Shown here piece by piece: positions 3,089 through 57,732 of a DNA stretch of 64,000 nt. Position 1 is the stretch's first letter, and every line of letters starts with the position of its first letter. Under the pieces are notes generated by a model. That model did no database searches, was not told where the DNA came from, and saw only the letters and a list, made by a program, of their open reading frames with translations. Where the stretch lies: the NCBI RefSeq assembly GCF_010894455.1, contig NZ_JAAIXY010000025.1, positions 62,001 through 126,000 of the forward strand. The letters are read 5' to 3'. Both the position numbers and the translations under genes were made by a program. This DNA comes from Myxococcus eversor. GTDB lineage: Bacteria; Myxococcota; Myxococcia; Myxococcales; Myxococcaceae.

Positions 3089-5248
3089 ATGGCCCAGGAC
3101 CGCAACGCACGCTTCGGTCGGTACGAACTCCTGGCCCTGCTGGGGCGTGGAGGCATGGCCGAGACGTGGCGCGCGCGACTGGTGGGCGCGGCGGGCGTCA
3201 CCAAGCCCGTCCTCATCAAGAAGGTCCTCCCCGAGTTCGCGAACAACGAGGACTTCATCTCGATGTTCGTCCGCGAGGCCCGCATCTCCTCCACGCTGTC
3301 CCACGGCAACATCGCCCAGGTCTTCGAGTTCGGCCGCGTGGACGGCCAGTACTTCCTCGCGATGGAGTTGGTGGATGGCCAACCCCTCTACCGCGTGCAG
3401 AAGCGCGCGGCGAAGCTGGGCCTGTCGCAGTTGCCCGTCCCCCTGGCCACGTACATCGCCCTGGAGCTGTGCCGGGGGCTGCACTACGCGCACACGCGCA
3501 CGGATGACAAGGGCACGGCCCTGAACATCGTCCACCGGGACATCGCGCCGGACAACGTCCTCATCAGCTACGAGGGTCAGGTCAAGATCGTCGACTTCGG
3601 CATCGCCAAGGCGCGCATGTCGCAGACCTTCAAGACCGAGCCGGGCATCGTGAGAGGGAAGTACCTGTACTTCTCTCCCGAGCAGGCCAAGGGCCACGAG
3701 GTGGACGCCCGCTCCGACGTCTGGTCCACGGGCCTGTTGCTGTACGAGCTGCTCTGCGGACAGCCCCCCATCACCGGCACGCAGGCCGCGGTGATGCTGC
3801 GCATGGCCTATGGCGAGTTCCCCTCGCCGCGACAGGTGCGAGCAGACCTTCCCGTCGCGCTCGATGAGCTGATCATGAAGGCGCTGTCGGTGGACCTGGG
3901 GAGCCGCTACGAGTCAGCGAATGCCTTCGCGGATGCACTGGCCGGCTTCCTGTACTCGGTGTCTCCGCCGTTCTCGACCATGGACCTGGCGCACCTGGTC
4001 CGGGTGCTGTTCCAGGAGGACCTCACCGAAGCGGGCCGCTCGCTGTCCGTGCCTCGCACCTTCCACGACGACCTGGCGGCCTGGCGCGCCCATGCCGCGA
4101 AGTCCCGCCCACCCCCGAAGACGCCTCCCGTTCAAACCGAGGAGCTTCCGTCCGCCCGGGACACCGCGCCTGCCTCGCCCCAGGACCCGGGGCGCAAGCG
4201 CAGACAATCGGAGGTCATGATTCCCTTGTCGGAGCGGCCCACCCAGCTCCACCTCGATGGCGCCACGGAGCTGCAACTCGAGAGCATTCCCCAACCCCGG
4301 CGCTGGAAGCGCATCGCGGCCCTCGCCGGGGGTGGCGTGGTCCTCGCGGGCCTCTGCTGGGGCGCCATCCTGGCGAGGAGCCCGTCCACGTCGTCCACGG
4401 GCTCGCCCGGCTCGGACGTGCGGGGCCGCTCGGAGCCCGGTGCGCTGCGTCCTCCCATCGTCATCCAGTATCCGGTGAAGGAGTTCCTGCTCGAGGCCGA
4501 CCGCGACGTCATCATCGTTCCGCGGAGCCACAGGTCCTTCGGGCCGCTCAATCCCCAGAACACCTACGTCCTCTCCGACCTGAGTGCCGTCAAGCTGGGA
4601 GAGCCCGCCGTCCTCAGCCCCTCCTCGAGCGGGACTCCCACGGTCTTCTATCTCCTGTCCGGCGAGGCCTCGCGCCTGCCCGAGCAGGCCCGACTGGGAA
4701 TGCTCTCCGGCGACCCCAGGACCTTCGAGAGTGTCCGCGAGCTGGCGATCTTCCGGCTCGGCCCCGGCAGCACCGAGGCGATGTCCGAGCGCTACCTCCG
4801 CATGACCGGAGCCGACGGCGCTGATCCGCAGTCACTCGTCTTCCACCCGGATGGGGAGGGACTGCTGTTGAAGCGCGCGCTCGTCCTCAAGGGGCTCGAC
4901 CCGATGTCGACCTACACGCTCAATCTGGAGGCGACCGCCCAGGGCGCGTTCCTTCATGGGCGCGAGGCGGGCCCCGCCACCACGGTGGCCTGCGCGCAGT
5001 GGCTGCCGCCTCCCGAGGAGAATCCCTCCCTGCGGACGAGTCCCAGGGACCCGGACGCACTGATCCTCCAGTTCCTGCTCCGACAAGGAGAGGAGCGCCG
5101 CGTGCGGGGCGTCCTGGGACTGATGTGTGGCTTCGTCGACGACGGCGCCGATGGCAACTCGGGCGCGCTCCTCGTGCGCATCGACGCGGAGGCTCCGCCC
5201 AAGCGGCCTCCCCCCAGGAAGCCTCGCAACACGGACGCCACGCCCTGA
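3089..5248 (+). CDS. Transmembrane Ser/Thr protein kinase with unrecognised C-terminal domain
   Basis: 719 residues. The kinase domain (about 1-290) has GRGGMAET, VLIKK, HRDIAPDN, VDFGIAKA and SPEQAKG. The catalytic loop has Ala where most Ser/Thr kinases have Lys. A basic Pro-rich juxtamembrane stretch leads to one membrane helix (about 405-427). Outside it lies a domain (about 455-705) that I do not recognise. It recurs in the next two kinases: F.LE....V....R....L.P..TY near its start, FYLLSG in the middle, GLDPMSTYTL, then VACAQW and GLMCGFVDD near the end. Unlike its neighbours it has no TPR-like tail. It begins 44 bases after the previous kinase, so co-transcription is likely. I infer the outer domain senses or binds something. 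Confidence 0.9.
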   Translation: MAQDRNARFGRYELLALLGRGGMAETWRARLVGAAGVTKPVLIKKVLPEFANNEDFISMFVREARISSTLSHGNIAQVFEFGRVDGQYFLAMELVDGQPLYRVQKRAAKLGLSQLPVPLATYIALELCRGLHYAHTRTDDKGTALNIVHRDIAPDNVLISYEGQVKIVDFGIAKARMSQTFKTEPGIVRGKYLYFSPEQAKGHEVDARSDVWSTGLLLYELLCGQPPITGTQAAVMLRMAYGEFPSPRQVRADLPVALDELIMKALSVDLGSRYESANAFADALAGFLYSVSPPFSTMDLAHLVRVLFQEDLTEAGRSLSVPRTFHDDLAAWRAHAAKSRPPPKTPPVQTEELPSARDTAPASPQDPGRKRRQSEVMIPLSERPTQLHLDGATELQLESIPQPRRWKRIAALAGGGVVLAGLCWGAILARSPSTSSTGSPGSDVRGRSEPGALRPPIVIQYPVKEFLLEADRDVIIVPRSHRSFGPLNPQNTYVLSDLSAVKLGEPAVLSPSSSGTPTVFYLLSGEASRLPEQARLGMLSGDPRTFESVRELAIFRLGPGSTEAMSERYLRMTGADGADPQSLVFHPDGEGLLLKRALVLKGLDPMSTYTLNLEATAQGAFLHGREAGPATTVACAQWLPPPEENPSLRTSPRDPDALILQFLLRQGEERRVRGVLGLMCGFVDDGADGNSGALLVRIDAEAPPKRPPPRKPRNTDATP

Positions 5249-5391
5249 GGGGCCGCCCTTTCGTGAGTGCCCTCCAGAACACTCACAACCGAACAACGCA
5301 GGGCACCTCCTGATGGAAATCGGGGGCGGATCAGGGCCGAAATGACGGCACGACGACGACACGCGCCGAGCGCCCGTCACGGGTTGCCCCC

Positions 5392-7836
5392 ATGCCCCCT
5401 GATCCACATGAGAACCTTGGTCGCTACGAGCTCCTCACCCAGCTGGGCCGGGGTGGAATGGCGGAGACGTGGCGCGCCAGGCTGGTCGGCGCCGCGGGAA
5501 TCACCAAACCGGTCCTCATCAAGAAGGTCCTCCCGCAGCACGCCCACGACGAGGACTTCATCGAGATGTTCATCAGCGAGGCGCGCATCTCCGCCACGCT
5601 GTCGCATGGCAACATCGCCCAGGTCTTCGACTTCGGACGGATGGAGGGTCAGTACTTCCTGGCCATGGAGTTGGTGGATGGGCAGCCGCTCCACCGCATC
5701 CTGAAGCGCGCGGCGAGGACCGGGCTCAAGCAGATGCCCATTCCGCTGGCGGTCTACATCGCCCTGGAGATGTGCCGGGGACTGCACTACGCGCACTCGC
5801 GGACGGACGAGAAGGGCGAGCCCCTGCACATCGTCCACCGCGACATCTCTCCGGACAACGTGCTCATCAGCTACGAGGGCCAGGTCAAGATCGTCGACTT
5901 CGGCATCGCCAAGGCGCGCATGCTGCGCAACTTCGACACCGAGCCGGGCGTGGTGCGAGGGAAGTTCCTGTACTTCTCTCCGGAGCAGGCGAGGGGCCGC
6001 GCGGTGGACGCCCGCACGGATGTCTGGGCCACGGGGCTGGTGCTGTACGAGATGCTGTGTGGCCAGCTCCCCGTCATCGGGACGCAGGCGGCGGTGATGT
6101 CGCGGATGGCCCACGGGGAGTTTCCTTCACCTCGTGAGGTGCGCGCGGAGCTGCCGTCCGCGCTGAATGAACTCGTGATGCGGGCGCTGTCCGTGGATGC
6201 CTCGCTTCGCTACGAGTCGGCGAATGCCTTTGGCGACGCGCTGGCCGCGTTCCTCTATCCCTTCGCGCCCCGGTTCTCGCCCATGAACCTGGCGTATCTC
6301 GTCCGTGAGCTGTTCAACCCGGACCTGCTCCAGGAAGGCCGCGAACTCACCGTGCCTCCCACCTTCGTCGAGGAGCTGAGTGCCTGGCGGGGAGTGGAGC
6401 CCGCTGCGCCTGTTCCCCCTCCCGAGCGGCGACGGACTCCGGGCCCCGCGCCCGCCTCATCCAAGGTGTCCCTCCCGAAGCGAGATGCGCTCCTGGCCCC
6501 CACCATGCGCATGCCCGCCGTCGCGAGCCCCCGGAAATCCCCCGCGTGGGCTCGACTGGCGCTGATCCTGGGCGGTGGGCTGCTCGTGCTCGTGGGCGTC
6601 CTTCACGACGGGCCCTCGACCGAGGAGGCGGCGCTTCAGCCCCCTCCTGATGACGGCGCTTCGCGGCTCGCGCGGTACCCGGAGCCGGGTGTCGTGGCCC
6701 CCCCCGGGGACTCGACACTGAAGGGCGCTGCCCCGGAGGTGGCCGTCGCGGGGGAGAGGTCCGCTCCAGGGGCCGGTCCCGAGGGCGCCAGCGAGGCCGA
6801 GCCCATTCCGGCATATCCCGCGATGACCACGTTCCGACTGGACTCCCGGCTCCATGTGCTGCGCGTACACGCGGACCTGGTTGCCTTCTCGCCGCTGGAT
6901 CCGCTGGCCACCTACCGCCTCTGGGGAACGAACCCCATGGAGGGGGTGCCCCAGTCGTCCGCCATCCTGGAGCCTTCACCGAGCAGGGAGCTTCCGGTCT
7001 TCTTCCTGAGCTCCGGTGACTCCGTGCCCCCCGAGTCGCGCATGGGCACCGTCTCCCCTCGTCCCGTCTCCATCAGGGGCCCGCGGTCCATCATGCTGTT
7101 CACCCTGGGAGAGCCGACCAAGGACGACCTCGCGTCTCACACCGTCTACCTCAGGGAACTCAAGTCGAACACGGATCGTCGCTTCACCTTCCATCCCGAG
7201 CCCATGCGCATCTCCGGTCGCACGGGATTGCTCATCCGGGGCCTGGACCCGCGGCAGACCTATGGTTTGTCATTCAATCCGGTGGGGAAGGGCGTCTTCC
7301 TGCGCGGCCCAGGCGAGGGGCCCACGAGCCAGGTGGCCTGCCTCGAGTGGGATCCCCGGTCCACGACAAAGGGCCCGGTTTCGCGCGCCGCCACCGCCGG
7401 GAATCCCTTGCAGTTCCTCCTGACTCAGGGGCGCGACGTGAAGGTCCGGGGCATCCAGGGCCTGCGCTGCGGCTTCATCGACGATGCCGCCTTCGACAAC
7501 GAGGGTGAGGCCGAGGTGAGCATCACCGCCTGGGAGCCCAGGCGCGCGAGGAGTCAGGGCGGCCAGGGGAACTTCCGCGTGCAGGAGGCCACGCGCCTGG
7601 CCACCCAGGCGCAGCGACTGGCCCGGTCTGGACAGCACCACGACGCGTTCCTCCTGGCCGAGGACTGTCTCTCCAACGTTCCGGAGCAGCCCGACTGTCT
7701 GCTCCTCTCCGGGGCCATGCAGCAGAGACTGGGCCGGATGGATGGCGCCCTGGATCGGTATCGCACCTTCGTCCAGCGCTACCCCAGCCATCCCCAGGCC
7801 GCCACGGTGACGACGTTCCTCAAGAGCCGGCAATAG
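5392..7836 (+). CDS. Transmembrane Ser/Thr protein kinase with unrecognised outer domain plus TPR-like tail
   Basis: 814 residues, third complete member of the array. Kinase motifs: GRGGMAET, VLIKK, HRDISPDN, VDFGIAKA, SPEQARG. The membrane helix is at about 385-405 (ALILGGGLLVLVGVL). The unrecognised outer domain (about 478-715) starts TTFRLDSRLHVL, passes FFLSSGD and GLDPRQTYGL, and ends with VACLEW and GLRCGFIDDAAFDN. A TPR-like pair (about 727-814) with DCL....EQPDCLLL follows. The protein thus combines the outer domain of its upstream neighbour with the tail of the first two kinases. ATG 5392 gives the same short lead before LGRYEL as in the paralogues. A 143-base gap separates it from the previous gene. 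Confidence 0.9.
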   Translation: MPPDPHENLGRYELLTQLGRGGMAETWRARLVGAAGITKPVLIKKVLPQHAHDEDFIEMFISEARISATLSHGNIAQVFDFGRMEGQYFLAMELVDGQPLHRILKRAARTGLKQMPIPLAVYIALEMCRGLHYAHSRTDEKGEPLHIVHRDISPDNVLISYEGQVKIVDFGIAKARMLRNFDTEPGVVRGKFLYFSPEQARGRAVDARTDVWATGLVLYEMLCGQLPVIGTQAAVMSRMAHGEFPSPREVRAELPSALNELVMRALSVDASLRYESANAFGDALAAFLYPFAPRFSPMNLAYLVRELFNPDLLQEGRELTVPPTFVEELSAWRGVEPAAPVPPPERRRTPGPAPASSKVSLPKRDALLAPTMRMPAVASPRKSPAWARLALILGGGLLVLVGVLHDGPSTEEAALQPPPDDGASRLARYPEPGVVAPPGDSTLKGAAPEVAVAGERSAPGAGPEGASEAEPIPAYPAMTTFRLDSRLHVLRVHADLVAFSPLDPLATYRLWGTNPMEGVPQSSAILEPSPSRELPVFFLSSGDSVPPESRMGTVSPRPVSIRGPRSIMLFTLGEPTKDDLASHTVYLRELKSNTDRRFTFHPEPMRISGRTGLLIRGLDPRQTYGLSFNPVGKGVFLRGPGEGPTSQVACLEWDPRSTTKGPVSRAATAGNPLQFLLTQGRDVKVRGIQGLRCGFIDDAAFDNEGEAEVSITAWEPRRARSQGGQGNFRVQEATRLATQAQRLARSGQHHDAFLLAEDCLSNVPEQPDCLLLSGAMQQRLGRMDGALDRYRTFVQRYPSHPQAATVTTFLKSRQ

Positions 7837-7940
7837 ACACCGCCCGGGGCCGCCGCTCATCGGCCGATTGGCTGACATTGAGTCCCGCATTCACGGAGCC
7901 CCCTTTTTGATCGGAATCCCCCGCGATACCCTACGCCTCA

Positions 7941-10550
7941 ATGGCGAATGAGCAGCACGCACGGTTTGGCCGGTACGAGCTCCAATCCCGAATCGGCCGG
8001 GGGGGGATGGCGGAGACGTGGCGGGCCCAGTTGCTGGGGGCCGCGGGCGTCACCAAGCCAGTCCTCATCAAGAAGGTGTTGCCGGAGTTCGCCAACGACG
8101 AGGCGTTCGTCGCCATGTTCATCAGCGAGGCGCGCATCTCCGCCTCGCTGTCCCATGGGGCCATCGCCCAGGTCTTCGACTTCGGGCAGATGGACGGCGA
8201 TTACTTCCTGGCCATGGAGTACGTGGACGGCCAGCCGCTCAATCGCATCATGAAGCGGGCGCTGCGCTCCAACTTCGCCAGCCTGCCGGTGCCTATCGCC
8301 ACGTACATCGCGCTGGAGATGTGCCGGGGCCTGCACTATGCGCACACGCGCACGGACGACAAGGGCGAGCCCCTGCACATCGTCCACCGCGACATCTCTC
8401 CGGACAACGTCCTCGTCAGCTACGAGGGCCAGGTCAAGATCGTCGACTTCGGCATCGCCAAGGCGCGCTCGCTGCGCAGCTTCGACACCGCGCCGGGCGT
8501 GGTGAAGGGCAAGTACCTGTTCTTCTCGCCGGAGCAGGCGAGAGGCGAAGAGGTGGACGCGCGCACGGATGTCTGGGCCACGGCGGTGGTGCTGTTCGAG
8601 ATGGTGTGCGGCCGGCTCCCGTTGGAGGGGCCGGAGTACGTGGTGATGCACAAGCTGCACACGCGCCAGCCCTTGCCGCGTCCGCGCGATATCAAACCGG
8701 ACCTGCCGGTGCGACTGGAGGCCATCCTCCAGAAGGCGCTCGCGGTGCGGAAGGAGGACCGCTTCGAGTCCGCCCATGCCTTCGGCGATGCGCTGGCGGG
8801 ATTCCTCTTCAAGGCGGCGCCGCGCTTCTCCGCGATGTCCGCGGCCTATCTCCTGCGGGAGCTGTTCCGTCCCGACCTGACGGAGCTGGGCAAGGACACC
8901 AAGGTGCCGCCGTCGTTCGTGGAGGAGCTGTCCGTCTGGCGCGCCACCACGAGCCTGCTGCCCAAGCCCACGGAGCTGTCCACCCCGGAGCTGCGCACGG
9001 AGCCGACGACGCTGGAGAGCGAGCCGGGGGACCTGCCGGACGGAGGAGAAGGCGCGGCGCTGGACGCGGACGAGGAGGAGGACGGCAACTCTCCGGACCG
9101 GGGAGGCTTCTTCGAGAACAGCTTCCGCATCTCCACGCACCACGTCGTGGTGACGGTGGGACTGCTGATGCTCGCGGGCCTGTTCTGGTCGTCCTTCGAC
9201 AAGCTCAAGGCGGACTGGATGCCTCCCGAGCCGAAGGCCACCGGGCCTGTCAGGCCGCCGCTTCCCACGCAGCAGATCAAGGTCGCCGACGACCACCGCG
9301 CGCCGAACGGGGCCCCAGCCCAGCCCGTGCAGGAGCCGGCTTCGAGCAAGCCCTCCGGGGGCATGGATTCAGTGCATCTGCCGCTCGCGTCGTTCCGGCT
9401 GGAGGCTCGGAAGCACGTCTTCGGGGTGTCCTCCGGGCGCGCTGCGCTCGGGGCGTTGGATCCACAGGTGACGTACCGCATCTCCGAGTCGGGCCTCCTG
9501 TCTCCGGCGGATCGCGGCAAGCCCATGCCGAGCATCTTCTTCCTGCTGTCGGGGAAGGACGTCGCGGCGGACGCGGCGGTGGGACTGGTGACGCGCAGGC
9601 CAGAGCCGTTCCGAGGCGCCTCGGCGGTGATGTTCTTCACGGTGGGCGCGCCCACGCCGCAGGACGATCTGCCCGAGCGCATCGTCACGGTGCTGAACAC
9701 CCGGACGAATGAAGAGCGCCGTCACACCATCCACCTGGAGTGGATGACCACGGACTTGAGCCGGAGTCTCTTCGTCGATGGGTTGAACCCGATGGAGGTC
9801 TACACGCTGACGCTGGAGCAGGTGGAGGGGGGAGCCTTCACCCGAGGAAGGGCCCAGGGCCCGGTGGTGACGGTGGCGTGCGTGCAGCAGGTGTCCGTGG
9901 AGCGGGATGGTCCGGGCACACCTCCCGCCCGGGCGCAGCGCTTCCTGCTGACTCGGGGCGAGGACATGAAGATCAGCGGCATTCATGGGCTCTACTGCGG
10001 GTTCATCGACGACGACCCGTCCGACAATCAGGGCGCGGTGGAGATCCGCATCGAAACGGCGCGGGAGCGGGAGGAGCGAGACAAGAGGGAGCGCGAAGAG
10101 GCCGCGACCGCGCAGGGCTCCGAGGAGACCATCCTGGAGCCCACCGATGCGGGGACTCGCCCCGCGGGCACGGGGCCGACGACGGTTCCCTCCAAGGTGA
10201 CGACCGGCAAGCCACCGCCTCGACAGCCGGACCCGGTGGTGGCGCCGGACGAACCGCCCGACGCGAGCCGGGGGGACGTGGCGCTCCTGCAGGCGAAGAA
10301 CCTGTTCAAGGCGAAGCAGTACGACGCCGCGAGGACGCGAGCGCGCGAGTGCGTCGCGATGGAGCCGGAGAACCTCGAGTGCCACCTGTTCCTGGGCTCG
10401 GTGGCGGCCAAGCTCGGGCGCAAGGAGGAGGGCGCGAAGCACTACCGCCTCTTCCTCGACCTGGCCCCGTCGTCCCATCCGCATGCGAGCGCGGTGATCA
10501 GGGCCCTGGAGGAGTACGAGTCCATGCGGAGCACACCCACGCAGCCGTAG
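7941..10550 (+). CDS. Transmembrane Ser/Thr protein kinase with unrecognised outer domain plus TPR-like tail
   Basis: 869 residues, last and longest of the array. Kinase motifs: GRGGMAET, VLIKK, HRDISPDN, VDFGIAKA, SPEQARG. After an acidic linker (DADEEEDG) the membrane helix lies at about 400-420. The unrecognised domain (about 477-707) has LASFRLEARKHVF, FFLLSGKD, GLNPMEVYTL, VACVQQ and GLYCGFIDDDPSDN. A charged Glu/Arg stretch (REREERDKREREE) and a Pro-rich linker lead to a TPR-like pair (about 777-863). The kinase domain is the most divergent of the four complete copies: LEGPEYVVMHKLHTRQPLP replaces the shared T(G)TQAVVM segment. ATG 7941 matches the paralogue starts. It converges with the TPR gene downstream, 43 bases away. 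Confidence 0.9.
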   Translation: MANEQHARFGRYELQSRIGRGGMAETWRAQLLGAAGVTKPVLIKKVLPEFANDEAFVAMFISEARISASLSHGAIAQVFDFGQMDGDYFLAMEYVDGQPLNRIMKRALRSNFASLPVPIATYIALEMCRGLHYAHTRTDDKGEPLHIVHRDISPDNVLVSYEGQVKIVDFGIAKARSLRSFDTAPGVVKGKYLFFSPEQARGEEVDARTDVWATAVVLFEMVCGRLPLEGPEYVVMHKLHTRQPLPRPRDIKPDLPVRLEAILQKALAVRKEDRFESAHAFGDALAGFLFKAAPRFSAMSAAYLLRELFRPDLTELGKDTKVPPSFVEELSVWRATTSLLPKPTELSTPELRTEPTTLESEPGDLPDGGEGAALDADEEEDGNSPDRGGFFENSFRISTHHVVVTVGLLMLAGLFWSSFDKLKADWMPPEPKATGPVRPPLPTQQIKVADDHRAPNGAPAQPVQEPASSKPSGGMDSVHLPLASFRLEARKHVFGVSSGRAALGALDPQVTYRISESGLLSPADRGKPMPSIFFLLSGKDVAADAAVGLVTRRPEPFRGASAVMFFTVGAPTPQDDLPERIVTVLNTRTNEERRHTIHLEWMTTDLSRSLFVDGLNPMEVYTLTLEQVEGGAFTRGRAQGPVVTVACVQQVSVERDGPGTPPARAQRFLLTRGEDMKISGIHGLYCGFIDDDPSDNQGAVEIRIETAREREERDKREREEAATAQGSEETILEPTDAGTRPAGTGPTTVPSKVTTGKPPPRQPDPVVAPDEPPDASRGDVALLQAKNLFKAKQYDAARTRARECVAMEPENLECHLFLGSVAAKLGRKEEGAKHYRLFLDLAPSSHPHASAVIRALEEYESMRSTPTQP

Positions 10551-49260: not shown

Positions 49261-50555
49261 GCCAGACGCTCAGCGCCGTCAAGGGCATGAACGACCTGCT
49301 TCCAGGGGAGATTGAAATCTGGCAGCACGTGGAGGGCCTGGCGCGGGAGCTGTTCGGCCGCTACGGCTACGGAGAGATCCGCACGCCCATGCTGGAGGAC
49401 ACGGCGCTGTTCGTGCGCAGCGTGGGCGAGGAGACGGACATCGTCGGCAAGGAGATGTACACCTTCGACGACAAGGCTGGCCGCAGCCTGTCGCTGCGTC
49501 CCGAGGGCACTGCTCCGGCGGCGCGCGCGTACATCGAGCACTCCATCCTGAACCAGGAGCCGCTGACGCGCTGGTTCTACACGGGGCCGATGTTCCGGTA
49601 CGAGCGGATGAAGACGGGCCGCTACCGGCAGTTCTATCAAGTCGGCGCGGAGGCCTACGGCTCGAAGGAGCCCGCCCAGGACGTCGAGGTGATGGACATG
49701 GTGGCCCAGTTCCTCCAGAAGCTGGGGCTCCAGGACATCGCGCTCAACCTCAACTCGCTCGGGGACGAAACGTGCCGGCCCGCGTACCACGCGAAGCTGG
49801 TGGAGTACCTGCAGGCTCACATCGAGGAGCTGTGCACCGACTGTCACCGGCGCATGGAGAAGAACCCGCTGCGGGTGCTCGACTGCAAGAACCCGACATG
49901 CCAGGCGGTCGCCTCCAAGGGACCCAACGTGCTCGAGTTCCTCTGTGAGCCCTGCAAGGCGCACTTCGATGACGTGCAGCGCAAGCTGACGGCGCTGGAC
50001 ATCAAGTACGTCGTCAATCCGCGCATGGTTCGCGGCCTGGACTACTACACGCGCACCGTCTTCGAGTTCATCGCCTCGCACCCCGCGCTGGGCACCGCCA
50101 GCACCGTGGGCGGCGGAGGCCGGTACGACAAGCTGGTGAAGAGCCTGGGCGGACCGGATGTGCCCGCCGTCGGCTTCGCGTGTGGACTGGACCGGCTGGT
50201 GCTCCTGCTCAAGGAGAGCCAGCAGAAGTTCGGCGCGACGCCGGACCTGTTCATCGCGGTGGCGGACGCGGGCTCGCACGACGTGGCCTTCACCCTGGCC
50301 AGCCGCCTGCGGCGCGAGGGCCTTCGCGTGGACTTCGACACGCGCGGCGGCAGCCTCAAGAGCCAGATGAAGCGCTCGGACAAGAGCGGGGCGCGCTTCA
50401 CGCTCGTGCTCGGGGAACTGGAGCGCACCAGCGGGCAGGCCAAGCTCAAGCAGATGGCCGGAGGGGAGCCCATCCCCGTGGCCCTGGACGATATCGCGCG
50501 GACCGTGCGGGCCCACTCGGCCGCTCCTCGGGCGGACGCTACCGGCGTCTCCTGA
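49257..50555 (+). CDS. hisS: Histidine-tRNA ligase
   Basis: 432 residues. Class II synthetase motifs: GMNDLLPGE, SLRPEGTAPAARAYI, FRYERMKTGRYRQFYQ, and the two HisRS signatures RGLDYYTRTVFEF and GGGGRYDKL, GFACGLDRLVLLL. A C-terminal anticodon-binding domain follows (LFIAVADAGSHDVAF). It charges tRNA-His. GTG start overlaps the psd stop by four bases (GTGA). A strong terminator follows right after the stop. Confidence 0.96.
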   Translation: MSQTLSAVKGMNDLLPGEIEIWQHVEGLARELFGRYGYGEIRTPMLEDTALFVRSVGEETDIVGKEMYTFDDKAGRSLSLRPEGTAPAARAYIEHSILNQEPLTRWFYTGPMFRYERMKTGRYRQFYQVGAEAYGSKEPAQDVEVMDMVAQFLQKLGLQDIALNLNSLGDETCRPAYHAKLVEYLQAHIEELCTDCHRRMEKNPLRVLDCKNPTCQAVASKGPNVLEFLCEPCKAHFDDVQRKLTALDIKYVVNPRMVRGLDYYTRTVFEFIASHPALGTASTVGGGGRYDKLVKSLGGPDVPAVGFACGLDRLVLLLKESQQKFGATPDLFIAVADAGSHDVAFTLASRLRREGLRVDFDTRGGSLKSQMKRSDKSGARFTLVLGELERTSGQAKLKQMAGGEPIPVALDDIARTVRAHSAAPRADATGVS

Positions 50556-50556
50556 G

Positions 50557-50596
50557 ACAGAAGGCTCGGAATTTCCGCATTCCGAGCCTTCTGTTT
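50557..50596 (+). terminator. Strong hairpin terminator after hisS
   Basis: A 16-bp perfect stem (acagaaggctcggaat / attccgagccttctgt) with a 6-base loop, then ttaaaa. It starts two bases past the stop. It marks the end of the psd-hisS unit and isolates the peptide cassette that follows. Confidence 0.9.
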
Positions 50597-50692
50597 AAAA
50601 CCAGAGGAACCTCGTAACCTCCTGGAAATTCAGGGGGAACCCCCTGGGACTCATTCGCGCCGCTCGGAGCGCTGCGATACACTCACGTGGCA

Positions 50693-51100
50693 ATGTCGGG
50701 TGAGTCCCCCACCTTCTCTTCACCTTCGGCCTTTCGCTGGATTCCCGTACGGGGAGACAGCATGTGGCCGTCGTTGCGGGCAGGGGACTTCGCCGGGGTG
50801 GAGCCGCTGTCGGGCGAGCCTCGGCCGGGTGAGGTGGTGCTGGCGCGGTTCGACGACGCGCTCGTCCTGCATCGAGTCCGTTCAGCGGGCGAGGGCGTGC
50901 TGTCGCTGCGCGGGGACAATGCGCCGGCCGAGGATCCTCCGATTCCGGCCTCGCGCATCCTCGGGCGGGTGACGTGTGTCAGGCGGGGCGAGGTGGAGCT
51001 GGGCGCGGAGTGGGACCGGGGGCCGTCGCGGCTGGGGCGCGTGCGAGCGGTGGTGCGGGGCAGGGTGGCGCGGTGGCTGGGGCGGGGAGGGCGGCCATGA
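50693..51100 (+). CDS. S24/S26-type (signal-peptidase-like) protein
   Basis: 135 residues. VRGDSMWPSLRAGDFAGVEP is the Ser site of LexA/signal peptidase folds (Ser near 25); PGEVVLARFDDALVLHRV and LSLRGDNAPAEDPPI follow the same fold. The Lys general base normally in the second block is not obvious (Arg instead), so activity is uncertain. There is no membrane helix. First gene of a six-gene overlapping cassette. The ATG overlaps nothing upstream; its stop overlaps the PqqD ATG (ATGA). Confidence 0.8.
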   Translation: MSGESPTFSSPSAFRWIPVRGDSMWPSLRAGDFAGVEPLSGEPRPGEVVLARFDDALVLHRVRSAGEGVLSLRGDNAPAEDPPIPASRILGRVTCVRRGEVELGAEWDRGPSRLGRVRAVVRGRVARWLGRGGRP

Positions 51101-51393
51101 GCGGCGACTTCCCGGCGGACCACCTTCCACGGCGACGGGCGGGCGCGGAGGGACAGCGCTTCGGCGCGGACTATCTTTTGCTGGATGCGGAGGGGCGCAC
51201 GCTGCGCGGCCTCAACGCGACGGCGGTGCGAATCTGGGAGCTCTGTGACGGGACGCGCTCGGCGCGCTCGGTGGCCGAGGTCGTGGCCCGCGAGTTCTCG
51301 ATGGACGTGGGGCAGGTGCTCACGGACACGGTGCGGTTTCTCACGGACCTGGCCCGCCTGGGCCTGGTCGACGAGCTTCAGGAGGTACGGTGA
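51097..51393 (+). CDS. PqqD-family peptide chaperone (RRE domain)
   Basis: 98 residues. GADYLLLDAEGRTLRGLNATAVRIWELCDGTRS then VAEVVAREFSMDVGQVLTDTVRFL: the PqqD/RRE order of strands and a winged-helix part. These domains bind the leader of a peptide that is to be modified. It overlaps the peptidase-like gene by four bases and the lipoprotein gene by one or more bases. Confidence 0.88.
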   Translation: MSGDFPADHLPRRRAGAEGQRFGADYLLLDAEGRTLRGLNATAVRIWELCDGTRSARSVAEVVAREFSMDVGQVLTDTVRFLTDLARLGLVDELQEVR

Positions 51394-51932
51394 TGCGAGC
51401 GCGCATTGCAGGCGTATCGGCGGCGGCGCTGCTGCTGACGGCCTGTACGGAGGGCGGTATCTCGCCCCGGGTGTTCGACTGGACGGATTCACCGGGCGGT
51501 GGGACGCCCGTCGTGGAGCCCGTCTCGCCGACGGACGTGCTGGGTGAGGAGAGCGAGGCCGCCCGGCCTCCGGCCCCTGAAGCCGTCGCGGAGGGCGAGC
51601 CGATGCCCGCGCCTGTCTCCGGACGCGCCGAGGTGGTGGGGCTGGACGCCCACGGCCTGTCGGATGTGTCCCAGGTGGACGTAGACCTGACGGTGAGCGG
51701 GGTGAACGGCAAGGGCCGCGTGGAGGTCGAGTTCGTCTCGCCCACTGGCCATCCGTATGAGCGGCGCACCTCCGTGGTGGAGGCGAAGCCGGAGATGACT
51801 CGCACCGTGCGCTTCTCGTTGCCCGTGGCCGGGACGACGGTGGCCACCTCCGGCATGAGCGGGACGTGGCAGGTTCGCTTCTTTCTCGACGGCGCGCCGC
51901 TGACCACGGCCGCCTTCACCCTGGAGCCGTGA
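51393..51932 (+). CDS. Lipoprotein of the peptide cassette
   Basis: 179 residues. The signal ends LLLTACTEG (lipobox). An acidic Pro-rich linker is followed by a beta domain (VDVDLTVSGVNGKGRVEVEF ... TWQVRFFLDGAPLTTAAFTL) of Ig-like look. No match is recognised. AGGAGG ahead of ATG 51393. It sits between PqqD and the large secreted protein, one base from the latter. Confidence 0.8.
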   Translation: MRARIAGVSAAALLLTACTEGGISPRVFDWTDSPGGGTPVVEPVSPTDVLGEESEAARPPAPEAVAEGEPMPAPVSGRAEVVGLDAHGLSDVSQVDVDLTVSGVNGKGRVEVEFVSPTGHPYERRTSVVEAKPEMTRTVRFSLPVAGTTVATSGMSGTWQVRFFLDGAPLTTAAFTLEP

Positions 51933-51933
51933 C

Positions 51934-54900
51934 GTGAGGACCGCCGCCATGATGCCCCTCAACGCCCGCCTCGCCGCGCTCGTCGCGGTGCTCGTCCTTC
52001 CCGCCGCCGCGCTGGCGCAGAGCACGACGCGCGCCGCCGTCTTCACGACGCTCGCGGAGCCTGGAGAGACCCAGGCGACCGTGGTGATGGACGAGGCCTC
52101 CGAGCTGCGCGTCCAGGTGCGCAACAACACCCGGAGCACGTCGCCGCAGTTCCGCCCCATCAACCAGGTGACGTTCGTTCTGCCCACCGGCTACACGTTG
52201 CTGGAGAGCCCGCCGCCCCCAGGTTGGGTGGTGGACCACTTCATCGCGGCGCGACAGGTGACGTACAACCTCCCCGTCAACTGCGCGCTGGCGGATGCCG
52301 GGTTGATGCAGAACGAGACGGCGACCTTCACGCTGCGGATGATTCCGCAGGTGACCGCGACGACCAATGCCACGGGCCAGCGGTTCACGACGCTGACGGC
52401 TTTCGAGGCTTGCGGAAACCTGTCCTTCACCACGAACCGGACCGACGCCATCGCGGAGTGGCGTCGCGTGGGCCTGTCCACGCGGGCTCAGATCCAGCCG
52501 CGTGTACTGCCCGTGGGCGACGACGTCACCGCGCGCCTCGTCATCGAGAACCGGACCAGCCTGACGGCGACGCAGAACAACATCACGGCGGAAGGTCCCA
52601 GCACCGGCGCGGGCGGTGTCTCGTTCCAGGTCGTCGAGCTCCAACCCGCCAACTTCATGGTGAACCTTCCGCTCCGAAGCGCGGGCATCCTCTCCGCGCG
52701 AGCCACCACCCAGACAGGTGGGACGATGGTGGCCAGCGTCCGCGCCACCAACGCGAACGGCACGCTCACCTCCGCCGTGGCGGACACCCCCATGGTCAAC
52801 GTGGGCGTGCTCGCGGCTTCCGCTGACGTGGACAATGACCAGGCCTTCACGGGCGAGGCAGTGAAGCTGCGCCTCAGCGTCACCAACACGTCCACCACCG
52901 CGTCCTATCTGAACGTGACGCCCCGGGCTCCCATCCTCGTGGGCACGGCCGTGGCGACCCTGGCCTCGGGCCCCAGCCCCACCAGCGTGACGCGACTGGC
53001 GCCCGGAGTCTCCGCGCACTTCGTCTGGACGTACACCCTCTCCGGCACCGAGTTCTCCTCGTATGCCTTCGACCTGCAGGCGGACGCGACGTTGAACGGG
53101 AGCGCCGCGACGACGCAGGTGGTTCGTTCAGGAGAGGGCCGCATCGTGTCGCATCGCGTGCGCGTGAGTCCGTCCGTGCTGGTGCCGGGCACGCCCAACC
53201 AGGCCGTCGTCTACACCGTGCAAAACCGGGGGGCGCTCCCGCTCGACGAAGTCACGCTGCTCCGGCCCGCCGTGAACTTCTTCACGTTCGTCGGCGGCAA
53301 CCCGGCTGCTCCCACGGGGTGGTCGGTGTCGAGCAACGCGACGAGCTTCACCTGGATGACGGGCAACGCGGCCCAGCGCATCATGCCCAACCAGGAGCGC
53401 TCCTTCACGGTGACGTATGCGAGCGTCGGCACCGTCACCGCGCCCACGACGTTCCGCCATCGGATGCACCTGCCCCTCGCGTATGCGTCCGACTCGGCCG
53501 CGCGCATCGAGGCCCCTGTGACTCTCGCCACGGGCACCGCGCCGGAAGTCGAGCGCCTCACCGCCGTGGCTCGGGACGGGAGCGTGACGGTGACGTGGGA
53601 CAACCCCGCCGCGCACAACGGCGTGCTGGTGCTTCGCACCGCCGGGGCAGCGCCCAACACACTGCCCGTTGCCGGTCGCGCCTACGCCGCCGGCTCGACG
53701 CTGGGCAACGCCACCGTTATCGCCTCCGAGAGCTTCGGCTCGACGTCCTCCGTCACCGACACCTCCGTCGTCAACGGCACCACGTACCAGTACCGGGTGT
53801 TCAACACGGATGAAGTGGGCCGGTACTCTCCGGGCAGCCGGCCCTCGGCCTCGGCGGCGCTCATCGCGACGCCCCAGGCCCGCGTGGGCGCGGCACCGCT
53901 GTGGTGCTACTCGGTGGGCATCGACGCGCGCCTCCAGCCCATCACCGAGCTGGGCGTGGGCATCTTCAGCTCCTACAACGACTCGGTCGTCGCCAACCTC
54001 ACCAACGTCACCACGCCCTCGACCGACGGCGCCGAGCGTTGGCGTCCGCTTCCCCTGTCCGGCCTCATTGGCAGTCGCTTCCCGGTGGTTCCGCTCAATG
54101 GTCTGGCCGGCCAGTACATCCTCACGGCCGACCAGGCGGGAGTGGCCTACGCCATCAACGCCACCACCGGCACGGTGCTCTGGCGCTGGGACAACACGGG
54201 CGCGCCCATTGGCATCATCCAGTCCTTCCCCGTGACGCAGCTCCACGACTTCGCGAACCCCGCGTACAAGGCCGCGCGGCCGAACGTGGACCTGGTGTTC
54301 TACGCGACGCGGCTGGCGAACCCGGCCCTCAATCGCGTGGTGGCGCTCAACGCCCGGACAGGCACGTCGGTCTTCACCTACCAGCCCGGAGACCTGGGCA
54401 TGGTGAGCGGCGGCATGGTGGTCGACTACACCACCAACCGCCTCTTCATCGGTTCGAAGACGCATGGCGGCTCGACGGCCTCGCTCCGCGTCCTGAACAC
54501 GCTGACGGGTGCGGAGGTGGCGCGGCTGTCGCTCGGTGACCTGGACCACAGCCTGGTGCGCAATGCCGTGGCGAATCAGATCTTCGCGACCAACAGCGAC
54601 GGCGTTGTCCACGCCATCGACGCGGGCACCCTGGCGCCCGTGTGGAATGTGAACGTGGGCACGCGCCCCTCGCCGAGCACACCCGCGTTCACCAGCTTCG
54701 TGCGCCCCCTGGGCGGCGGCTTCGTGGCCAGCCTCGCCAGCGGGCAGGTGGCGTTCTGGGACTACGCGGCGCCTGGGGCGACGACGCCCACGCAGGTGTG
54801 GTCCACCCCCATCGCGAATCCGTCAGGCACCTTCACCCTCAACTCCGCCGGCGTCGTCCGCATCTACGTGGGCAGCTCCGATGGGAAGGTGCATCAGCTC

Positions 54901-55047
54901 GAGATGATTGGTGGCGTGGACTCGCGGCAGGTGTCCATTGGCGCCGCACAGCTCATCGGCACTCCGACCGTCGACAACACCGTCTCCCGACTGCATGTCG
55001 GCTCTCAGGACGGCCGCATCTGCGCCTTCCCGGTACCGTTCCCGTGA
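51934..55047 (+). CDS. Large secreted protein: Ig-like and FN3-like domains plus PQQ-like beta-propeller
   Basis: 1037 residues. Signal peptide (LVAVLVLPAAALAQ). Residues 30-530 hold four or more Ig-like/DUF11-type beta domains. A fibronectin III-like domain follows near 540-640 (VERLTAVARDGSVTVTWDN ... TYQYRVFN). The C-terminal 370 residues are a propeller of PQQ-type repeats, e.g. YAINATTGTVLWRW, VVALNARTGTSVFTY, VHAIDAGTLAPVWNV. GTG 51934 or ATG 51949 could be the start. The stop overlaps the GTG of the small peptide. Probable surface protein, perhaps displaying or binding the peptide. Confidence 0.85.
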   Translation: MRTAAMMPLNARLAALVAVLVLPAAALAQSTTRAAVFTTLAEPGETQATVVMDEASELRVQVRNNTRSTSPQFRPINQVTFVLPTGYTLLESPPPPGWVVDHFIAARQVTYNLPVNCALADAGLMQNETATFTLRMIPQVTATTNATGQRFTTLTAFEACGNLSFTTNRTDAIAEWRRVGLSTRAQIQPRVLPVGDDVTARLVIENRTSLTATQNNITAEGPSTGAGGVSFQVVELQPANFMVNLPLRSAGILSARATTQTGGTMVASVRATNANGTLTSAVADTPMVNVGVLAASADVDNDQAFTGEAVKLRLSVTNTSTTASYLNVTPRAPILVGTAVATLASGPSPTSVTRLAPGVSAHFVWTYTLSGTEFSSYAFDLQADATLNGSAATTQVVRSGEGRIVSHRVRVSPSVLVPGTPNQAVVYTVQNRGALPLDEVTLLRPAVNFFTFVGGNPAAPTGWSVSSNATSFTWMTGNAAQRIMPNQERSFTVTYASVGTVTAPTTFRHRMHLPLAYASDSAARIEAPVTLATGTAPEVERLTAVARDGSVTVTWDNPAAHNGVLVLRTAGAAPNTLPVAGRAYAAGSTLGNATVIASESFGSTSSVTDTSVVNGTTYQYRVFNTDEVGRYSPGSRPSASAALIATPQARVGAAPLWCYSVGIDARLQPITELGVGIFSSYNDSVVANLTNVTTPSTDGAERWRPLPLSGLIGSRFPVVPLNGLAGQYILTADQAGVAYAINATTGTVLWRWDNTGAPIGIIQSFPVTQLHDFANPAYKAARPNVDLVFYATRLANPALNRVVALNARTGTSVFTYQPGDLGMVSGGMVVDYTTNRLFIGSKTHGGSTASLRVLNTLTGAEVARLSLGDLDHSLVRNAVANQIFATNSDGVVHAIDAGTLAPVWNVNVGTRPSPSTPAFTSFVRPLGGGFVASLASGQVAFWDYAAPGATTPTQVWSTPIANPSGTFTLNSAGVVRIYVGSSDGKVHQLEMIGGVDSRQVSIGAAQLIGTPTVDNTVSRLHVGSQDGRICAFPVPFP

Positions 55048-55223
55048 AAAATCCCTCGACTCCCTCGTCCTCTCCGTCGCCGACGACGGAGGCTCCTCGG
55101 GCCGCTCCGGCCCAGGCCGCTCCGCGCTACGAGGCTCCCGCCATCCTGTGGGAGCAGCCCTTCGTCGCGCTCGCGGCCATGTCCCAGTGCAACATCCCCG
55201 GCGAATCGGAGTGCACGCCCTGA
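55044..55223 (+). CDS. Candidate precursor peptide (Cys-containing, RiPP-like)
   Basis: 59 residues. The first half is Ser/Pro/Thr/Ala rich and looks disordered; the second half is RYEAPAILWEQPFVALAAMS then QCNIPGESECTP. A YxxPxIxWEExF-like segment followed by a short Cys/Gly/Ser end is typical of RRE/PqqD-linked peptides, where the first part is the leader. GTG 55044 overlaps the stop of the large gene (GTGA); the end overlaps the HprK-like gene by 13 bases. That double overlap makes chance unlikely. No cyclase gene is in reach. Confidence 0.75.
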   Translation: MKNPSTPSSSPSPTTEAPRAAPAQAAPRYEAPAILWEQPFVALAAMSQCNIPGESECTP

Positions 55224-56113
55224 ACACGCCGGGAGCCGGCCCGTCCGGTCCCCAGCGCCCCGGCGGTTCCGGCGACGATGGCCTGGAGCTGTCCGGCCCG
55301 TGGCTCTCCATCGCCGGCTGGACGGTGGGCCTCGATGTCCCGGACTCCCGTGTCCGGGAGCTCTTGCTCCGCTCCCTCTCTGGCTTCGTGACAGGTCCAC
55401 CGCGGGCCGGAGCCCGTTGCTCCCGGCTGCGTGTCGTGGCCCCCTCTGCGGTTCGCCCCGAGCCGCCGACTCGTGAGTTGCCCCGGCCCTGGCGTGAGCA
55501 GGATGGCTCGCTCCGGTTGGAAGGGGAGGACTACTCGGCGCGAATCGATGCGGACGGCCTTCGCGGTGAAGTGTCGGGCACGGGCCGCTTCCCTGTTGAG
55601 GTAGTGCTGCGGGTGATGCTGGCGGCGGAGCTGGCCCGACGCGGCGGCCTGCTGGTGCATGGCGTGGCGCTCGTGCTGGGAGAGACGGCGGCGCTCTTCA
55701 CGGGACACTCGGGCGCGGGCAAGAGCACCTTGGGTGGGCTGTGGATGGACGCGGGCGAAACGGTGCTCTCGGATGAGCTGGTGGCTGTGTGGCCCGATGC
55801 GGTGGAGGGCTCGTGGCGAGCCTCGGGCACGCCTTGGAACCTGGGCTTCCCCCGTGAGGCGCGGCTTCGTGCCGTGGGGACGTTGGCCTGGGATTCGGGC
55901 TCGCGTTGGGAGCGACAGCGCGCGGGGGACGTGGGCCGGGTGCTGGTGCACAATGCGCTGCTGTCGGAGGCCTCCTCGGTGGGCCGCGCGGCGCTGCTCG
56001 CCTCGGCGGGGAGGTTGTTGTCGGAGGTGGAGCCGGTGCGACTGGTGTTCGCGAGAGATGCGTCCGCCGCCACCGTGGTGCGTGAGGCCCTGGGAGTGTC
56101 GGGACATGGGTGA
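55211..56113 (+). CDS. HprK-like kinase of the peptide cassette
   Basis: 300 residues. Walker A GHSGAGKST near 175, LLVHGVALVLG ahead of it, and LSDELVAVWP after it: the pattern of HPr kinase/phosphorylase and its RiPP-linked relatives. Homologues in lasso-peptide clusters phosphorylate the peptide. No HPr or PTS gene lies nearby. GTG 55211 is inside the peptide gene; a later start is possible as the first 20 residues look loose. The stop overlaps miaA by 8 bases. Confidence 0.82.
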   Translation: MHALNTPGAGPSGPQRPGGSGDDGLELSGPWLSIAGWTVGLDVPDSRVRELLLRSLSGFVTGPPRAGARCSRLRVVAPSAVRPEPPTRELPRPWREQDGSLRLEGEDYSARIDADGLRGEVSGTGRFPVEVVLRVMLAAELARRGGLLVHGVALVLGETAALFTGHSGAGKSTLGGLWMDAGETVLSDELVAVWPDAVEGSWRASGTPWNLGFPREARLRAVGTLAWDSGSRWERQRAGDVGRVLVHNALLSEASSVGRAALLASAGRLLSEVEPVRLVFARDASAATVVREALGVSGHG

Positions 56114-57032
56114 GGGACAGGAGGGGAGACCGACGTTGACGGTGCTGGCCGGGCCGACCGCGTCGGGGAAGTCGGCGCTGGCCTTGGAATTGGCTCGGCG
56201 ATTGGGTGGCGAGATTGTCAGCGCGGACTCGCAGCAGGTGTACCGGCACTTCGACGTCGGCACCGCGAAGCCTTCCGCGGAGGAGCTGACGGCGGTGCCG
56301 CACCACCTCGTGTCGGTGGTGGACCCGATGGAGACCTTCTCCGCCGCCGAGTACCAACGTCGCGCGGACACGGCCATCGCCGACATCACCGGACGAGGTC
56401 GGCCCGTCGTCGTGGTGGGCGGCACGGGGCTCTATCTGCGCATCCTGCTTCACGGCGTGGTGGACGCTCCGGGGGCACTGCCGGAGCTGCGCGCGGAGCT
56501 GGAGACACTCGCGGCGGAGCAGGGCCGCGAGGCCGTGCACCAGCGACTGGCCCTGGTGGACCCGGAGACCGCGGCGAAGCTGCCCGTTCAAGACCTGGTA
56601 CGCGTGGTCCGAGCGCTGGAGATTCATGCGCAGACAGGTGTGGCCGCGTCCGAGTTCCGCAAGGCCCACGCCTTCGCGCCGGACCGATATCCCTTCCGGT
56701 TCTACGTGTTGGACCCGCCGCGCGAGGAGCTGTACGCCCGCATCAACACGCGCACCGAGGCCATGTTCGCCGCCGGGCTCGTGGAAGAGACGCGGGCACA
56801 TCTGGAGCGGGGCCTTGGCGACGCGGCTCCCATGCGGAGCGTGGGCTACGTGCAGGCGCGCGCCGTGGTGGAGGGCCGCATGTCCGTGGACCAGGCCATT
56901 CAAGACACCGCCCAGGAGACTCGGCGGTACGCCAAGCGCCAGCTCACCTGGTTCCGGAAGGAGCCCGGCGCCGTCTTCATCCAGCCCCCGTATGAGGCCC
57001 TGCGCGGAAGCACGCCAAGCCTTCCGGGCTGA
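56106..57032 (+). CDS. miaA: tRNA dimethylallyltransferase
   Basis: 308 residues. It has AGPTASGKSALALELAR (Walker A), IVSADSQQVYRHFDVGTAKP, DPMETFSAAEYQ, VVVGGTGLYLR and, near the end, PMRSVGYVQAR with TRRYAKRQLTWFRK. It puts the isopentenyl group on A37 of tRNAs reading U-starting codons, including Leu(CAA) found in this window. ATG overlaps the HprK-like stop by 8 bases, so it is cotranscribed with the peptide cassette. Confidence 0.96.
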   Translation: MGEGQEGRPTLTVLAGPTASGKSALALELARRLGGEIVSADSQQVYRHFDVGTAKPSAEELTAVPHHLVSVVDPMETFSAAEYQRRADTAIADITGRGRPVVVVGGTGLYLRILLHGVVDAPGALPELRAELETLAAEQGREAVHQRLALVDPETAAKLPVQDLVRVVRALEIHAQTGVAASEFRKAHAFAPDRYPFRFYVLDPPREELYARINTRTEAMFAAGLVEETRAHLERGLGDAAPMRSVGYVQARAVVEGRMSVDQAIQDTAQETRRYAKRQLTWFRKEPGAVFIQPPYEALRGSTPSLPG

Positions 57033-57147
57033 AGCCGCCCTTCAGGGAGGGGCGAGGAGGGGAGGCGCGGGAAGCGAGGCCGTTGTCCCCGTGCTCGGAG
57101 GCACCCATGTTCGCCACTGAATCTTTCCTCCAAGGAGGCGGACCGAC

Positions 57148-57732
57148 ATGGACACCAGCTTCAAACGTGAACCCCTGACAGGTGACCGAAGCAAGGCCGC
57201 CTCGGCTGCCTGGGGCCCCCCCTTCGTGTTGGGGCTGTTGATGGCCGTTCTCGGCTTCGTCGCGCTGGGCGCCTCGTTCCTCACCAGCCTGGTCTCGGTC
57301 ATCCTCTTCGGCGCGCTGCTGGCCGGAACGGGCATCGCTGAGATTGTCTCCTCGTTCCGCGTCCGCAAGGCCGGCGGCCCTTTCTGGCTCTACCTGCTCA
57401 GCGGCGTGCTCTCCACGGTGGTGGGGTTCTTCGTCCTCGTGTACCCGGCGGCGGGCCTGGGGGCGCTGACGCTCCTGCTCGCTGGCTACTTCTTCGCCAG
57501 CGGCCTCTTCCACGTGGTGACGTCGCTGATGGACCGCTACCCGCAGTGGGGCTGGGACTGCGCCTATGGCGTCATCTCCATCGCCCTGGGTGTCATCGTC
57601 ATGGCCCAGTGGCCCGTCTCCGCGGTGTGGCTGGTGGGGACCCTGGTCGGTATCTCCATCCTCATGCGTGGCATCGCGCTCATGGCCGGCTCGCTGGAGC
57701 TGCGCAAGGGCCTGCGTCGCGTCACCACGTGA
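57148..57732 (+). CDS. HdeD-family (DUF308) membrane protein
   Basis: 194 residues, six membrane helices in pairs (GPPFVLGLLMAVLGFVALGA ... GVISIALGVIVMAQWPVSAV), the repeated layout of HdeD, linked with acid resistance in enterics. A strong AAGGAGG lies ahead of ATG 57148. A 13-bp hairpin follows. Confidence 0.9.
   Translation: MDTSFKREPLTGDRSKAASAAWGPPFVLGLLMAVLGFVALGASFLTSLVSVILFGALLAGTGIAEIVSSFRVRKAGGPFWLYLLSGVLSTVVGFFVLVYPAAGLGALTLLLAGYFFASGLFHVVTSLMDRYPQWGWDCAYGVISIALGVIVMAQWPVSAVWLVGTLVGISILMRGIALMAGSLELRKGLRRVTT

Follow-up and report, generated by a model that had tools for sequence, protein, structure and literature searches.

The DNA analysed here, a stretch of 64,000 nucleotides of Myxococcus eversor (hereafter the window; contig NZ_JAAIXY010000025.1, positions 62,001 to 126,000), comes from a genome of 11.4 Mb in 124 contigs; judged by the RRE described below, its nearest named relatives are Myxococcus species, in keeping with the family Myxococcaceae. 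It carries a unit of six plus-strand genes that overlap or abut one another between a hairpin behind hisS and the gene miaA (Table 1). In order, these encode an S24/S26 peptidase, a PqqD-type recognition element (RRE) as known from ribosomally synthesized and post-translationally modified peptides (RiPPs), a lipoprotein, a large propeller protein, a small precursor peptide and a kinase-like protein with the predicted HprK/PEPCK fold. Neighbouring genes overlap by 4, 1, 4 and 13 bases, and the propeller gene is preceded by a 1-base gap. The kinase gene most likely starts at the GTG at 55211, and the ATG start of miaA (56106) lies within its end. We argue that this unit probably produces a small modified peptide and puts it to use along the lines of the LPP RiPPs, the linear polyphosphorylated peptides of Bacillota (Popov et al. 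2026, PMC13381572).

An earlier note, made from the sequence without database searches, had described six such genes behind a strong terminator and running into miaA. All six are present on the plus strand in a conserved order, and the terminator corresponds to a hairpin of 18 pairs (-30.3 kcal/mol, z -7.09; 0 of 200 shuffles as good). We read it as the hisS terminator, which sets the unit apart from hisS; the consensus terminator scan listed none at this site because the T run is short. A sigma-70 scan of 50400-57200 returned no promoter-like site. The Pfam scores for Peptidase_S24, PqqD (cut-off 23.4 bits) and PQQ_2 all exceed their curated cut-offs, in agreement with the S24/S26 and PqqD assignments of the note. 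Its statement that radical SAM, YcaO, lasso and lanthipeptide enzymes are absent holds for the six genes by Pfam and NCBIfam, whereas genome-wide the search covered SPASM only. In these two libraries none of the six matched a lyase, cyclase, macrolactam synthetase or B2 cysteine peptidase.

Table 1. Features of the six-gene unit (window positions) and of WxxP peptide genes in other genomes (positions within the named regions)
Feature	Positions	Strand	Basis or remark
Hairpin directly 3' of hisS	50555-50596	+	RNA fold of 50553-50610
S24/S26 peptidase gene	50693-51100	+	Pfam Peptidase_S24, 43.8 bits
PqqD-type RRE gene	51097-51393	+	Pfam PqqD, 52.9 bits
Lipoprotein gene	51393-51932	+	Lipobox LTAC, residues 15-18
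Propeller protein gene, 1037 residues	51934-55047	+	Pfam PQQ_2, 33.4 bits; AlphaFold2 (AF2) model
Precursor peptide gene, 59 residues	55044-55223	+	GTG start overlapping propeller gene stop
Leader motif Y29-A44 (YEAPAILWEQPFVALA)	55128-55175	+	Gap-free match to LPP leader consensus
Predicted 15-residue core (AMSQCNIPGESECTP)	55176-55220	+	Predicted phosphosite Ser47 (55182-55184); Cys49, Cys57
HprK/PEPCK-fold kinase-like gene	55211-56113	+	Alignment of 35 sequences; AF2 model; Foldseek
WxxP six-Cys peptide behind propeller gene	L117 7240-7530	-	
WxxP six-Cys peptide behind propeller gene	L118 5896-6090	-	
WxxP six-Cys peptide behind propeller gene	L119 2478-2681	-	
WxxP six-Cys peptide behind propeller gene	L120 1540-1780	+	

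A search of 145 genomes of the order with the kinase as query matched 91 at E <= 1e-5, many of which have distant paralogues only, and 40 larger regions were fetched around such matches. The main set consists of 31 regions (L037-L067) drawn from 48 other genomes of the genera g1, g3, g5, g6 and g20 with a strong match. All six genes occurred in order and on one strand in 31/31 of these loci, across five genera of the family. The gene hisS lies just upstream in 30 of them, the remaining region beginning at a contig start with no hisS match, and miaA lies downstream in 29 (28 within 400 bases, one 2.2 kb off); in one of the other two, the miaA start falls at the region edge, and one has no miaA. 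The locus is thus fixed, which we take as a sign of mainly vertical inheritance. The earlier note had staked its proposal on the peptide being conserved next to the PqqD and HprK-like genes in relatives, and it is so conserved in every main-set locus.

Nine divergent regions fall outside the main set. G085 and G086 keep the RRE, lipoprotein, propeller protein, peptide and kinase, with the S26 gene not detected; G091 groups the RRE with the peptide and the kinase and has copies of the propeller gene in other places; and in G092 the unit is split over contigs. A fifth region, from G015, is described below, and the other four (L073-L076) contain another kinase paralogue.

Across 195 genomes of the phylum, the peptide profile matched 58. 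Two weak matches were dropped as chance, G093 (E 0.0018, in a frame that by eye runs into a VOC-like protein) and G143 (E 0.0056), leaving 54 of 96 family genomes together with G015 and G155. With presence called at E < 1e-10 for the peptide, 1e-70 for the propeller protein, 1e-40 for S26, 1e-25 for the RRE and 1e-20 for the kinase, the 54 peptide-positive family genomes contained the RRE in 54, the propeller protein in 54, the kinase in 53 and S26 in 50, and the 42 peptide-negative genomes contained the propeller protein in 4 and the RRE, kinase and S26 in none; Fisher values for this co-occurrence are inflated by relatedness. Genus g3 illustrates joint loss, with three genomes that have everything and three with none of the parts tallied here. 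Together with the conserved order, the presence of the propeller protein in all peptide-positive family genomes bears out the note's inclusion of the secreted proteins in the unit.

The precursor peptide matches no Pfam or NCBIfam family and has by eye no signal sequence. It comprises a variable head, the motif YEAPAILWEQPFVALA, one Ser and two Cys. The window and the loci obtained gave 33 distinct leader-core segments, collected with a pattern that requires [YW]xxPx[IV]xW, either F or L at position 12, and one Cys or more; these features are therefore not themselves evidence. Beyond them, motif position 19 is Ser or Thr in 32/33 segments, at least two Cys are present in 32/33 (the G015 peptide has only one), and A-L-A precedes the predicted cut in 29/33, with a small residue at -1 in the rest. 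The predicted leader cut after Ala44, between ALA and A, thus has an A-x-A setting, which suits signal peptidases. The ratio of nonsynonymous to synonymous substitution rates (dN/dS) was calculated for the 27 of 32 loci that fitted the pattern set for this calculation, leaving out L051 (WAQ) and four with longer cores. It was 0.22 for Y29-E54, indicating purifying selection, and 0.09 for the leader motif Y29-A44. Seven positions of the 15-residue core are unchanged and three more are kept in 26/27 sequences; the cores of genera g3 and g20 are longer.

As described by Popov et al. (PMC13381572), the lpp cluster of Paenibacillus alginolyticus comprises an RRE (LppB), a kinase (LppK), a signal-peptidase-like protein (LppS), a nucleoside triphosphate (NTP) transferase (LppN) and an exporter (LppD), and the leader consensus is YxxPxVLxHQxIxFETxxS. 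LppK phosphorylates core Ser3, the final product not being identified there. LppS, a Ser/His/Asp enzyme, cleaves after motif position 16 with the help of LppB, and its cutting is lowered by mutation of F-3, E-2 or T-1. The peptide of the window aligns with this consensus without gaps: Y29, P32, L35, Q38 and S47 are identical, I and F are conservative replacements, and FET is not kept. By the LPP register, the predicted cut falls after Ala44 and Ser47 falls on core position 3.

The likeness extends to the proteins, with a discrete RRE, an HprK-like kinase and a predicted signal-peptidase-like leader peptidase, and no lasso cyclase in the unit. In both systems a YxxP leader of equal spacing is combined with Ser at core position 3 (by prediction in the present unit), and NTP_transf_5 genes occur in the G015 and G155 relatives. 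The LPP study describes those peptides as patchy in distribution, mobile, variable in product, of unknown role and restricted to Bacillota (PMC13381572). In contrast, the present unit lies in Myxococcota, at one fixed locus and with a well-conserved short core; it adds a lipoprotein and a propeller protein and has A-L-A rather than F-E-T before the cut. Because LppN and LppD have no counterpart in the unit and the FET positions differ, we do not file it as an LPP, although we hold by analogy that it would work like an LPP pathway. The earlier note had suggested that the chemistry may be new. An RRE, an HprK-like kinase and an archaeal-type signal peptidase with a YxxP leader are already published for LPP, and the chemistry therefore need not be new. 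The novelty lies in the lineage, in a fixed locus, in a core that is short and has two Cys, in the lack of LppN and LppD within the unit, and in the lipoprotein and propeller protein.

Each of the three candidate processing proteins retains residues expected of its role. PDB profile matches of the RRE were the lasso RRE TbiB1 (6e-11, 45.3 bits), PqqD (8e-11, 44.8) and LppB 9x8z (2e-9, 40.5). Its N40, D77 and F81 align gap-free with LppB N33, D70 and F74, which contact the leader Tyr and Pro (PMC13381572); the LppB numbering assumes that the tag shifts it by 18, the offset at which every residue mentioned in that paper fits. In 21 sequences N40 and F81 are invariant and D77 nearly so. This discrete PqqD-type RRE is predicted to be the leader binder.

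The peptidase, of 135 residues with an S24/S26 fold and by eye no membrane helix, gave PDB profile matches to SEC11A (2e-4) and LexA (4e-4). Ser23, His60, Asp75 and Asp81 are invariant in an alignment of 22 sequences, and in our reading of the spacing Asp81 would be the catalytic Asp. The protein is a predicted leader peptidase; a LexA-like regulator was considered and rejected, given its 135 residues and the lack of a DNA-binding domain match in Pfam.

For the kinase-like protein, H150, S167-G168, G170-K171-S172-T173, D188 and E189 are invariant in the alignment. Its AF2 model (pLDDT, predicted local distance difference test score, 90.7) matched PEPCK (7e-7) and HprK (2.9e-5) in Foldseek and PEPCK in VIA (Z 14.7, 4.5 A over 251 residues); HprK chains, though ranked by Foldseek, were not among the 50 VIA matches listed. 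On the basis of this model the protein is predicted to have the HprK/PEPCK fold and to be a peptide kinase, which agrees with the earlier description of an HprK-like P-loop kinase in fold and in the invariant His, Lys and Asp, the curated family cut-offs not being reached.

The lipoprotein has no Pfam match, and its NCBIfam matches are at chance level (best E 0.047); a lipobox pattern is found in 33 of 36 rows of relatives (34 genomes, two represented twice). Both it and the propeller protein, whose signal peptide was recognized by eye, have ordinary Sec signals. The propeller protein was aligned over 32 sequences, and its AF2 model (pLDDT 88.0) has an all-beta front half, which we read from the model as probable immunoglobulin-like sandwiches, not assigned by search, and a C-terminal 8-bladed propeller (651-1037). 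The propeller resembles the designed 8-bladed Cake8 (VIA Z 35.7, 2.0 A, 314 residues) and BamB (Z 29.8, 2.4 A, 315 residues); a fold shared with either shows no function. In region L060, at about 5040-8078, the propeller gene is split in two frames, through a broken gene or a sequencing error.

Gene content, conservation, co-occurrence, active-site residues and the leader match are directly established; for peptide binding, phosphorylation, cleavage, export and surface partnership we infer the following course. The RRE would grip the leader motif at Y29-x-x-P32-x-I34, and the HprK-like kinase would phosphorylate Ser47, the third core residue. Presented with the leader by the RRE, the S26-type peptidase would cleave after Ala44 in the cytoplasm and free the two-cysteine core AMSQCNIPGESECTP. 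This core would leave the cell through an exporter encoded elsewhere and act together with the lipoprotein and propeller protein, which would exit by Sec. The earlier proposal of a unit that modifies, cuts and displays a peptide stands in so far as the peptide travels with the PqqD/RRE, HprK-like and S24/S26 genes, whereas display at the surface stays conjectural. No exporter lies in the unit.

Several observations weigh against this interpretation. In the leader comparison, identities beyond YxxP number only 3 of 9 (permutation p 0.012), the stronger value obtained by counting similar residues (p 1.7e-4) depends on residue classes chosen afterwards, and A, L and A occupy the positions of LPP F-3, E-2 and T-1. 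By profile, the RRE resembles LppB no more than it does lasso RREs or PqqD, and the best NCBIfam match of the peptidase, sigpep_I_arch (5.9e-7), reaches 29.5 bits against a cut-off of 51.85. The Pfam and NCBIfam scores of the kinase for HprK are weak, far below every curated HprK-family cut-off, and Glu189 stands in place of a catalytic Asp. In its PDB profile search a P-loop protein came first (1.7e-7), ahead of HprK 1jb1 (0.0018), with ABC ATPases following, and its sequence signal is therefore largely that of the P-loop. Pfam and NCBIfam revealed neither an MsbA-like exporter nor an NTP transferase (PF14907) among the six genes. The G085 peptide has Val at the Ser position and Ser one residue on, and the core, with a dN/dS of 0.42 for A45-S55 (27 sequences; a segment that ends before the kinase-gene overlap), is less constrained than the leader. 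The presence thresholds were chosen after viewing the tables, the clean presence/absence split depends on them, and many peptide-negative genomes contain more distant homologues of the RRE and the kinase that fall below them. Finally, the ancestral chemistry may have been richer than that of the present unit, given the radical SAM/SPASM genes in two outgroup loci.

These outgroup loci come from genomes of another family of the order (G015) and of another family of the phylum (G155). G015 has the NTP transferase, S26, RRE, peptide, propeller protein (24% identical), lipoprotein (assigned by place and weak similarity) and kinase, followed by a radical SAM/SPASM gene. G155 has the lipoprotein, the NTP transferase on the other strand, the peptide, the kinase, a SPASM enzyme 50% identical to that of G015, and the RRE; S26 was not detected, and the frame of 1221 residues that precedes the lipoprotein matches neither a Pfam family nor the propeller protein. 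The peptides are YEPPAIAWDEAFEPLT followed by AAS... in G015 and YEAPAVAWEEDFEPAG followed by QVTGC... in G155. The related loci with NTP_transf_5 and a radical SAM/SPASM enzyme beside the peptide and kinase, in two families of the phylum other than that of the window, are L115 5084-12465 and L110 5201-9241.

It might be argued from G015 and G155 that the unit arose by reduction from a radical-SAM RiPP cassette, whose radical-SAM chemistry was lost or is supplied in trans, the remainder only trimming and tagging the peptide. We consider this unlikely, because searches of the genome of the window for SPASM (E <= 0.001) and for the G015 enzyme (E <= 1e-20) gave no match, which argues against that enzyme family acting in trans, and because purifying selection on the peptide favours a function without a radical SAM enzyme. 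An NTP-transfer step in trans is compatible with the four matches to PF14907 (NTP_transf_5) in this genome, none of them in the unit and those with listed places on other contigs; the family is useless as a marker, being present in 96/96 family genomes.

A different view holds that the kinase and RRE leave the peptide unmodified, the peptide being a small regulatory or structural subunit of the surface complex and S26 processing the lipoprotein or the propeller protein. It draws on genomes in which lipoprotein and propeller genes (G049, G052, G053) or the propeller gene (G136) lack an adjacent RRE and kinase, yet in all four the propeller gene is immediately followed by a WxxP peptide. Moreover, RRE and kinase track the standard peptide within the family, and the peptide lacks the signal sequence that both putative substrates carry, so that we give this view rather little weight. 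That Ser or Thr at core position 3 is followed by at least two Cys in 31/33 distinct sequences could also suggest phosphorylation of Ser47 as a step to dehydroalanine, one cysteine then closing a lanthionine ring. Such a product seems very improbable: no lyase or cyclase was recognized among the six genes, the G015 peptide has a single Cys, and the LPP study found the phosphate itself on Ser3 (PMC13381572). Processing in the LPP manner is accordingly the reading we prefer.

In the four genomes just named, the standard peptide is absent and the small frame directly behind the propeller gene contains W-x-A-P-x-[VI] and a six-Cys tail ending in GG, with the core pattern LLCxxGxPxxCxxxxCCDxxxxCxxxCxGG (L117-L120). 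These peptides have a different core on a leader system that may be shared with the standard peptide. In L117, L118 and L119 the WxxP peptide has an S24-like gene nearby. A parallel set in G078 (L076 1429-9532) combines a lipoprotein-like protein of 1957 residues and a two-Cys peptide of the YxxP type with an RRE, an HprK-like gene and an S26-like domain, the last of these in one frame with an acetyltransferase-like part; it may represent a further surface protein that has a peptide of its own.

These four genomes and the G078 set are the basis for a more speculative idea, which we regard as possible though doubtful: the modified peptide would not be a released antibiotic but a tailored component of a single large surface protein, serving it as ligand, tether or prosthetic group. 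Each large secreted protein would then have its own [Y/W]xxP cysteine peptide gene, the RRE, HprK-like and S26 proteins would form a shared tool set, and the propeller protein would be a dedicated phosphopeptide receptor. A strict rule of one protein and one peptide is at odds with G091 and G092, whose additional propeller copies have no WxxP peptide in the roughly half kilobase read behind them. A housekeeping locus across several genera and a well-conserved product suggest a constant role in the cell and not one in warfare. The co-encoded surface pair makes the role of phosphorylated linear RiPPs approachable, and the peptide occurs in all 27 genomes examined of the window's genus, so that deletion tests should be feasible in a laboratory Myxococcus strain.

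Other known systems share parts of this arrangement. The phosphorylated lasso peptides paeninodin and pseudomycoidin (PMC9266682) likewise combine an HprK-like kinase and a discrete RRE with a [Y/W]xxP leader, whereas the six genes here include no macrolactam synthetase or B2 cysteine peptidase. Their phosphosite is a C-terminal Ser, in contrast to the predicted site at the core start, and their kinases need His-Lys-Asp-Asp, of which the kinase of the unit keeps His-Lys-Asp with Glu replacing the second Asp. SynChlorMet (Scm; TIGR04248-TIGR04251) has PqqD-like and kinase-like genes together with the radical SAM/SPASM proteins ScmE and ScmF, a gene type absent from the window unit. The best NCBIfam matches of the G015 RRE and kinase were ScmD and ScmC, both below cut-off, while the window RRE scores far below the ScmD cut-off and ScmC is not among the matches of the window kinase. 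HPr-rel-A also pairs an HprK-related kinase (TIGR04352) with a PqqD-like protein (TIGR04353), for which the unit scores 18.6 of 200 and 18.2 of 35 bits, below the cut-offs. A plasmid search for LPP clusters with LppB and with the kinase gave no match, and the LPP leader was not found in the PDB sequence set. The unit was not found described in open-licence PMC text, including passages of PMC12710340; a description may exist elsewhere. Beside HprK-like paralogues, YxxP cysteine-rich peptides occur at distances of up to about 3 kb in L073 (4690-4880) and L074 (4440-4680), that of L073 directly behind a 1551-residue frame.

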